A stretch of 35,454 bases of DNA from Candidatus Thorarchaeota archaeon AB_25 (GTDB lineage: Archaea > Asgardarchaeota > Thorarchaeia > Thorarchaeales > Thorarchaeaceae), in assembly GCA_001940705.1 (NCBI GenBank), contig MEHG01000010.1:1-35454 (forward strand), given 5' to 3'. This document shows positions 28,256 to 29,787 of the stretch, one piece after another. The notes beneath the pieces were generated by a model. It was not told the DNA's origin. It worked only from the letters and a program-made list of their open reading frames with translations, and did not search any database. Position 1 is the first letter of the stretch, and every line of letters begins with the position of its first letter. Position numbers and translations under genes: made by a program.

Positions 28256-29053
28256 TTATTCTTCAGGGAATAAGATCTCTCTGATTCTATAAATGGCATC
28301 CATGTACTCTTTTGAACCAACGGAGTAGTAATCTAGGAGCATTTCATACATTGAAAGGCTCTCTTTGGTTGCGATGTCTAGATTGACCATTTCAGCAATC
28401 TTAGTTCTCCACTCATACTGCATCTGAGCTCTCTTCACGCTCAGTTCTAGAAGTTCTTCGCGTTTTTCTTTGGAGATTTTTAGATTGAAGGTTTCAAGCA
28501 TTTTGTCCGTGTAGCCTTCTAGTTTCTCCCGGATACGTTTCTCCTCAGTCCCCCATGCTCCTGTCGTCAGCATGAATCCCTTCGCTGTTCTGCGGTAGTA
28601 ATCGGTACTCCGTTTACCCTTGGTAACGGTGCCATATCTGATGACATAACCGTACTCAATCAGCTTTGGCAGATGATGATACACTTGATTCTTGGTGATC
28701 TCTTCACCATTCATGCAACACTCGGGTGAATTTTTCACAATCTCAATAACAGACAGCACATTGCGTTTCACAACTTTTTCTCGAATTATTGTGTCACCAG
28801 TTTCCTCATCAGTCGTTCTTGTGGTCAGAGTGTCCTCCACACCCTTACGCAGAGTTTGCAAAATATTGTAACGAACAGCCTCATCAAGGACATCAGCTGT
28901 TTCTTCATTCGTAATAAAAACAATCTCTTTCTGGGGTTCTTTACCCTCTTTTGTTAAGACAATTCCCTCGAGGCTGTCTGTCATTTCCGTTGTGACATTG
29001 TCGTCGCCCATGTTAGTATTCACCAATGCATTTTCGATCCGTCGATTCATCAA
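28256..29053 (-). CDS. Winged-helix (ArsR-like) transcriptional regulator
   Basis: 265 aa; DEAVRYNILQTLRKG..., EITKNQVYHHLPKLIEYGYVIRYGTVTKGKRSTDYYRRTAKGFML wHTH pattern. Confidence 0.8.
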   Translation of the reverse strand: MMNRRIENALVNTNMGDDNVTTEMTDSLEGIVLTKEGKEPQKEIVFITNEETADVLDEAVRYNILQTLRKGVEDTLTTRTTDEETGDTIIREKVVKRNVLSVIEIVKNSPECCMNGEEITKNQVYHHLPKLIEYGYVIRYGTVTKGKRSTDYYRRTAKGFMLTTGAWGTEEKRIREKLEGYTDKMLETFNLKISKEKREELLELSVKRAQMQYEWRTKIAEMVNLDIATKESLSMYEMLLDYYSVGSKEYMDAIYRIREILFPEE

Positions 29054-29253: not shown

Positions 29254-29302
29254 TAGTCTATCTGAGCAACAACAAAAACAATAATGGTTGGTGTAGCAAA
29301 CC

Positions 29303-29309
29303 TTATATG
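29303..29309 (+). promoter_or_regulatory. TATA box candidate proximal to micro-ORF 1
   Basis: TTATATG about 34-40 nt before the ATG at 29343; GTGAT SD-like element at 29333-29337. Confidence 0.45.
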
Positions 29310-29342
29310 CAATTATGGTGTGTGCTGACCTAGTGATAAACG

Positions 29343-29450
29343 ATGTATCGCATGAAGATGACTAACAGCAACCGTGAGAAGTTGGACAACAAGATTGCGA
29401 AGGTTTACAAAACTGAGGCTATCGGGTACGCATACGCATACCGGAGGTAA
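29343..29450 (+). CDS. Micro-ORF 1, 35 aa: MYRMKMTNSNREKLDNKIAKVYKTEAIGYAYAYRR
   Basis: Read from sequence; absent from the track (too short); TATA and SD-like elements upstream; C-terminal motif shared with the next micro-ORF. Confidence 0.6.
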   Translation: MYRMKMTNSNREKLDNKIAKVYKTEAIGYAYAYRR

Positions 29451-29456
29451 AGTATC

Positions 29457-29546
29457 ATGGCACTAGCAAAAACAACTAAGAGGAAGTTTAAGCCTAAGGC
29501 GAAAATCTCTACTGACGCTATCACCCATTCCTACACATACAGGTAG
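29457..29546 (+). CDS. Micro-ORF 2, 29 aa: MALAKTTKRKFKPKAKISTDAITHSYTYR
   Basis: Starts 6 nt after micro-ORF 1 stop; SD GGAGGT embedded in the last codons of micro-ORF 1; C-terminal TDAITHSYTYR aligns with TEAIGYAYAYR. Confidence 0.62.
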   Translation: MALAKTTKRKFKPKAKISTDAITHSYTYR

Positions 29547-29552
29547 ATCACA

Positions 29553-29669
29553 ATGTCACGAAATGATGAAACCATTTGCTCTGACCTAGGGGAAGGGAGC
29601 CGTCCAGTGAGCGCTTCTAAGCAAGGCGATATTACAGTTGAAGATGTGCTCATGTGGGAAGCCACCTGA
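29553..29669 (+). CDS. Micro-ORF 3, 38 aa: MSRNDETICSDLGEGSRPVSASKQGDITVEDVLMWEAT
   Basis: Starts 6 nt after micro-ORF 2 stop with AGGT overlapping that stop; acidic, no shared C-terminal motif. Confidence 0.4.
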   Translation: MSRNDETICSDLGEGSRPVSASKQGDITVEDVLMWEAT

Positions 29670-29787
29670 GCGCTTCATTATTTTTACATCTAGTTTGAAT
29701 CTCATTTTCAACGAGCAATATAACATCAATAGAACCTCTACCACCTTTCTCCTAACAGTGTCGATTTTAGTCGTAGGATATGTTGTC

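Follow-up and report, generated by a model that had tools for sequence, protein, structure and literature searches.

We have found a multicopy family of three-gene micro-operons that, by sequence comparison, is specific to Thorarchaeota. One member lies in the window, the whole 35,454-nucleotide stretch of contig MEHG01000010.1 of Candidatus Thorarchaeota archaeon AB_25 that was analysed here, and encodes three short peptides designated A, B and C. Nearly every sequenced Thorarchaeota genome appears to hold several copies, of a size that gene callers tend to skip. The window operon and its surroundings comprise the following features.

28256-29053, minus strand: winged-helix (PadR-like) gene, candidate repressor, divergently adjacent in every complete locus of this place
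29286-29302, unstranded: palindromic operator GGTTGGTGTAGCAAACC, consensus GGTTTGN5CAAACC, abutting the TATA box
29302-29309, plus strand: TATA-like box CTTATATG, recognized from sequence and conserved among orthologues
29333-29337, plus strand: GTGAT, likely Shine-Dalgarno sequence of ORF A, assigned from sequence and conserved in position
29343-29450, plus strand: ORF A, 35 aa, basic, with conserved tail TEAIGYAYAYRR at 29412-29447
29443-29448, plus strand: GGAGGT, Shine-Dalgarno sequence of ORF B within the last codons of A, layout conserved
29457-29546, plus strand: ORF B, 29 aa, basic, paralogue of A, with conserved tail STDAITHSYTYR at 29508-29543
29541-29544, plus strand: AGGT, Shine-Dalgarno sequence of ORF C within the last codons of B, layout conserved
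29553-29669, plus strand: ORF C, 38 aa, acidic (pI 4.1), with conserved tail ITVEDVLMWEAT at 29631-29666
29678-29686, plus strand: T-rich stretch 3' of C, possible transcription terminator, judged from sequence

The preliminary description of this DNA had reported two tandem short ORFs 6 nt apart with GGAGGT inside the end of the first, followed by a third, acidic ORF, and had placed them divergent from a winged-helix gene and near profilin genes. These coordinates and this layout proved correct: the A-B and B-C spacers both measure 6 nt, C is the acidic ORF, and the winged-helix gene and profilin (PF00235, E=1.3e-5) are both present. T-rich stretches also occur 3' of C in other cluster copies. 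Elsewhere in the window, a 104-nt Rfam tRNA match at 1818-1921 on the minus strand may contain an intron.

The tails of A and B share 6 identities within their last 11 residues, and a tandem short-ORF pair with an equally good tail match occurred in 2 of 300 first-order Markov shuffled windows. The pair on its own is therefore suggestive, and the proof comes from relatives. The tails are indeed the best conserved part of the peptides; the accompanying idea of a divergent N-terminus needs refinement, as this part is not free to vary across the family. Dispersed copies have MAL[AT][TK]N in common at the N-terminus, and the corresponding part of the window's A (MYRMKM...) has diverged from it. 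The terminal R(R)-stop of the tails is explained in part by the overlapping Shine-Dalgarno sequence of the next gene (CGGAGGTAA, TACAGGTAG), whereas no such overlap accounts for the conservation of the STDAIxxAYxY ahead of it. In the C profile the tail motif is T-x-[DE]EVL-x-[WL]EAT, and its comparison with the A and B tails gave no support for a common origin. An HbYX proteasome-docking tail, suggested by endings such as LYR, was rejected because many members end in YRR, which leaves the Tyr not penultimate.

A search of related genomes, which the preliminary description had proposed as a check, identified tandem homologues of A and B throughout the genus of the window and much of its family, with the reading frames and the tail motif conserved, and returned no convincing A or B match in other families. 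Profiles of A and B each matched 45 of the 47 genomes of the family (at E<=1 for A and E<=0.01 for B), and the C profile matched 44 of the 47 at E<=1 and 31 at E<=0.001; the B profile matched none of 181 other Asgard genomes. The family corresponds to Thorarchaeota, according to the named records that bear the common promoter described below. In an hhalign comparison A and B proved to be paralogues (probability 98.5%, E=1.9e-15); no relation was detected between C and B, and C is a separate family. Clusters occur in the gene orders A-B-C, A-B and A-B-B; C is missing from some clusters, and in others an additional A is present under a promoter of its own. Another class of clusters, flanked by a phosphoglycerate-mutase-like gene region on one side and an aminotransferase on the other (L063, L068, L164, L166), carries neither operator and has a diverged A (...LDSLYYDYARIR) ahead of B.

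Most genomes contain several dispersed clusters at recurring places, such as beside genes for PolX-type polymerase, EF-1alpha, 3-hydroxyacyl-CoA dehydrogenase, transketolase and others, these neighbours being named from sequence, mostly without a profile test. They are ordinary metabolic or housekeeping genes that differ wholly between places, and since nothing is common among them, each cluster forms a transcription unit of its own. The dispersed copies have a common promoter of ~90 nt, TAGTCACAnnnTGTGACT...TGTGACCC...GTGGCTTCGC..TTATATACT...TTGTGAA...ATG, with an operator that differs from that of the window copy beside the profilin genes. A scan through 85,462 species located the exact promoter core in 84 stretches. 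Among the 80 loci listed, 76 belong to named Thorarchaeota, two to Lokiarchaeota (one isolate, RBin_111) and two to an 'archaeon' (one isolate); this promoter thus appears essentially confined to Thorarchaeota. At 62 of the 81 sites examined, a start codon lies exactly 86 nt downstream, and by inspection a family micro-ORF follows ~75 of these 81 sites.

In 13 genomes of the genus, matches to a looser operator pattern number 5-8 per genome (0-1 in the reversed control); seven other Asgards have none. When two mismatches were allowed the control neared the signal, so only strong operator sites were used. Targets other than micro-ORFs recur between species. They include a gene for a bactofilin-domain protein of ~400-420 aa (PF04519, E 5.6e-14; L210, L215-L218, L228, L341, L342), with the operator in its promoter in three genera, and an archaeal bactofilin regulon is possible. 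The operator is also found ahead of an MFS transporter gene (PF07690, E 3.7e-13) and of a gene for a multi-spanning membrane protein of ~360-390 aa that matches nothing in Pfam and has a charged N-terminal stretch (L209, L211-L213, L222, L224, L344). Several further sites were observed. A degenerate A-like micro-ORF (...ENLYYEYR...) lies 5' of the operator-bearing MFS gene (L343, L308), and an LLM-like monooxygenase, named from sequence, has a weaker operator in two species (L227, L345). At G007:C98 (L214), an intact-looking operator is followed by a GTG-started A-like remnant and then by a very long acetyltransferase-like ORF.

Selection on the ORFs was assessed by the Ka/Ks comparison that had been recommended for them. 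Across 13 orthologues of the window operon, dN/dS was 0.29 for A, 0.22 for B and 0.54 for C, and 0.12, 0.15 and 0.28, respectively, for the last 12 codons, ratios that are approximate because synonymous sites are far diverged. The N-terminal part of C is weakly constrained (dN/dS 0.63). In a 10-locus set, B gave 0.17 in its real frame and 1.67 and 0.73 in the other frames. Purifying selection therefore acts on A, B and C, most strongly in the tails, and on this comparative evidence all three are real protein-coding genes. The outcomes that had been named as refuting the ORFs, frames or a tail motif that relatives do not conserve and a non-coding substitution pattern, were thus not observed. 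In the AlphaFold models (pLDDT about 67), A is predicted to contain a long helix, and C to have a disordered stretch followed by a short helix at its C-terminus; the models consist of isolated helices only, at modest confidence.

Given the concentration of selection on the tails, we favour the reading that the peptides bind through short amphipathic C-terminal helices. A, B and C would be co-produced at high levels whenever a regulator allows it, this regulator being the winged-helix protein for the window copy and some GTCAC-binding factor for the dispersed copies. With flexible, charged N-terminal parts ahead of their conserved helices, the cationic A and B and the anionic C would then bind stoichiometrically to each other and/or to a common partner. 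The weakest step concerns this partner. Since bactofilin, the multi-spanning membrane protein and the MFS transporter are encoded by co-regulated genes, it would most likely belong to the envelope or cytoskeleton of the cell, a link drawn from promoter sharing among few target genes. As a whole, this proposal is tentative, and we give it slightly less than an even chance. A fixed A-B-C complex is not required, since C does not show the codon bias seen in A and B, is weakly constrained in its N-terminal part and is absent from some clusters. A more specific version, in which these lineage-wide tandem microproteins, with their gene-converted copies and dedicated promoter, assemble with or remodel a bactofilin or membrane-cytoskeleton system, is doubtful; if true, it would represent an abundant peptide module of a kind not found described in archaea. 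The micro-operons come with a ready regulon of promoter, partner genes and candidate repressor, and direct tests are possible. Thymosin/WH2-like actin binding, prompted by the profilin neighbours, was also considered and rejected; the resemblance was vague, and profilin genes are distant from most copies.

The main rival to binding through the tails is that A and B, as small basic proteins of high abundance, coat DNA or RNA in some growth state, with gene conversion keeping the copies uniform and C serving as an acidic modulator. Their mean charge (+4.4 for A and +5.1 for B, with -3.2 for C) is consistent with such a role, as are the multicopy organization and a codon bias typical of highly expressed genes. 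The fraction of codons ending in C is 0.71 for A, 0.66 for B and 0.39 for C, and long ORFs used for comparison have a mean of 0.45 and a 95th percentile of 0.68. Codon use of A and B is thus like that of highly expressed genes and suggests high expression; if expressed as predicted, the two would rank with the more abundant proteins in a lineage that figures in studies of eukaryote origins. However, selection sits on the Tyr/Ala-rich C-terminal helix instead of the basic N-terminal part, and no known nucleic-acid-binding family was matched. We therefore consider nucleic-acid binding unlikely, while granting it an appreciable chance.

Somewhat lower on the scale is a regulatory role, in which the peptides would bind a transcription factor (e.g. 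the winged-helix protein) or the transcription/translation machinery and provide feedback tuning of the regulon. The window operon is divergent from a conserved regulator, with which it has a palindromic operator region in common, and the dispersed copies are part of a small regulon. With up to two mismatches allowed, the palindrome has a density of 2.25 per kb near window-type clusters vs 0.034 per kb elsewhere in the same loci, a 66x difference. The winged-helix gene does not reach the PF03551 gathering score (E=0.0049, 17.3 bits vs a cut-off of 27). It occurs in 44 of the 47 Thorarchaeota genomes at E<=1e-8, and other Asgards yielded four weak matches and one comparable match (42% identity, E 8.8e-57). 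The latter is in G052, a non-Thorarchaeal Asgard, where palindrome-related repeats (TTTGACAAAC and GTTTGTATGACAAAC) lie directly upstream of the homologue (L346:2700-2900) and no family micro-ORF was seen beside it. These repeats and the palindrome density at window-type clusters support control of the window operon by the winged-helix protein, which probably binds the palindrome. The arrangement is like that of PadR-like autorepressors in its divergent regulator, its palindrome against the target TATA box and the related palindromes before a homologue; unlike in those systems, the PF03551 match is sub-threshold, the target genes are new and the binding is one that we infer. As for the peptides themselves, most copies are distant from the winged-helix regulator and have a different operator, and several identical copies with strong codon bias suggest a bulk product and not a signal, which makes a regulatory role fairly improbable. 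In many relatives, the window-type place includes a gene for a class I methyltransferase, oriented convergently to the micro-operon and located between the operon and a TrmB-like gene (L066, L080, L139, L140, L146, L160); this gene is missing in the window.

Copies within a genome resemble one another more than they resemble copies at the same place in other genomes. Within the genus, promoter identity was 0.863 between copies of one genome, 0.793 between copies that occupy the same place in different genomes and 0.795 for the remaining pairs, with 1 of 5000 label shuffles reaching the within-genome mean; for ORF A the values were 0.842, 0.757 and 0.746, with 0 of 5000 shuffles. The same pattern was also seen in the across-genera comparison. 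Judged by these identities, the dispersed copies undergo concerted evolution, which for dispersed micro-operons in archaea is an unusual case. Homology among the five copies in one genome (G022) starts at the operator and stops just past the C stop, delimiting a unit of ~410 bp. Such discrete borders, the near-identical copies in one genome and the adjacency of basic and acidic peptides might be expected of a selfish or mobile element, or of a toxin-antitoxin-like cassette, spreading in Thorarchaeota genomes. Against this, the fixed places are common to several genera and the family is vertically present family-wide; the combination of old, fixed places and homogenized sequences is better explained by gene conversion or repeated re-copying than by recent transposition. 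Toxin-antitoxin systems would be distributed sporadically and as mobile units, whereas the clusters are family-wide, at fixed places and in 0 of 181 other Asgards. No tRNA was found beside the clusters, and tRNA-associated integration was rejected. No viral, phage or plasmid link was found, at a sensitivity limited for peptides so short, and a viral scan with B found no relative. A mobile unit is accordingly improbable.

Modified or secreted peptides, such as a RiPP or pheromone with the conserved tail as processed core, would account for a conserved tail behind a more variable N-terminal part. No maturase, protease, E1/E2-like or transporter gene tracks the clusters between places, however, no signal-peptide-like hydrophobic stretch is present and each operon has three different tails, so that the RiPP-like modification raised in the preliminary description is very improbable. 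Its alternative of a degron or recognition tail on other proteins likewise gained no support, as the profile matches are short stand-alone frames. A non-coding RNA with incidental ORFs would fit the very high DNA conservation of the promoter region, but its chance is slight to the point of being negligible: frame-specific dN/dS well below 1 already contradicts it, the five G022 copies differ by a 6-nt in-frame indel inside an ORF vs a 1-nt indel in the A-B spacer, and the transcript has no unusual fold (RNA folding z = -0.35), hence no sign of a stable structured RNA, and no Rfam match.

A, B and C had no match in Pfam, NCBIfam, PHROGs or PDB, apart from one PHROG match of unknown function (E=0.02) that was taken as chance. 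Together with the negative Rfam result, this agrees with the initial impression that no known family could be recognized, and a literature search found no description of these micro-operons. With two protein families and a common promoter that lack a match in anything tested, we regard them as a new category; if every small-protein operon counted as one kind, the micro-operon would be a variant of that kind.

In the PSM-alpha operon of staphylococci, one transcript carries a series of neighbouring, very short ORFs that encode helical peptides, and every ORF has a Shine-Dalgarno sequence; PSMs are secreted and amphipathic along their whole length. The micro-operons are similar in having adjacent very short ORFs that each have a Shine-Dalgarno sequence, an analogy of layout only. 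They differ in that the Thorarchaeal peptides combine charge with a short conserved helix at the C-terminus, the copies are dispersed and gene-converted, and the promoter is archaeal. A second analogy is with the genes of spore SASPs and histones, where several paralogues that encode an abundant small protein are likewise dispersed and co-regulated through a common promoter. The micro-operons have no homology to these, the Thorarchaeal peptides are half the size or less, and each unit encodes different peptides in tandem.
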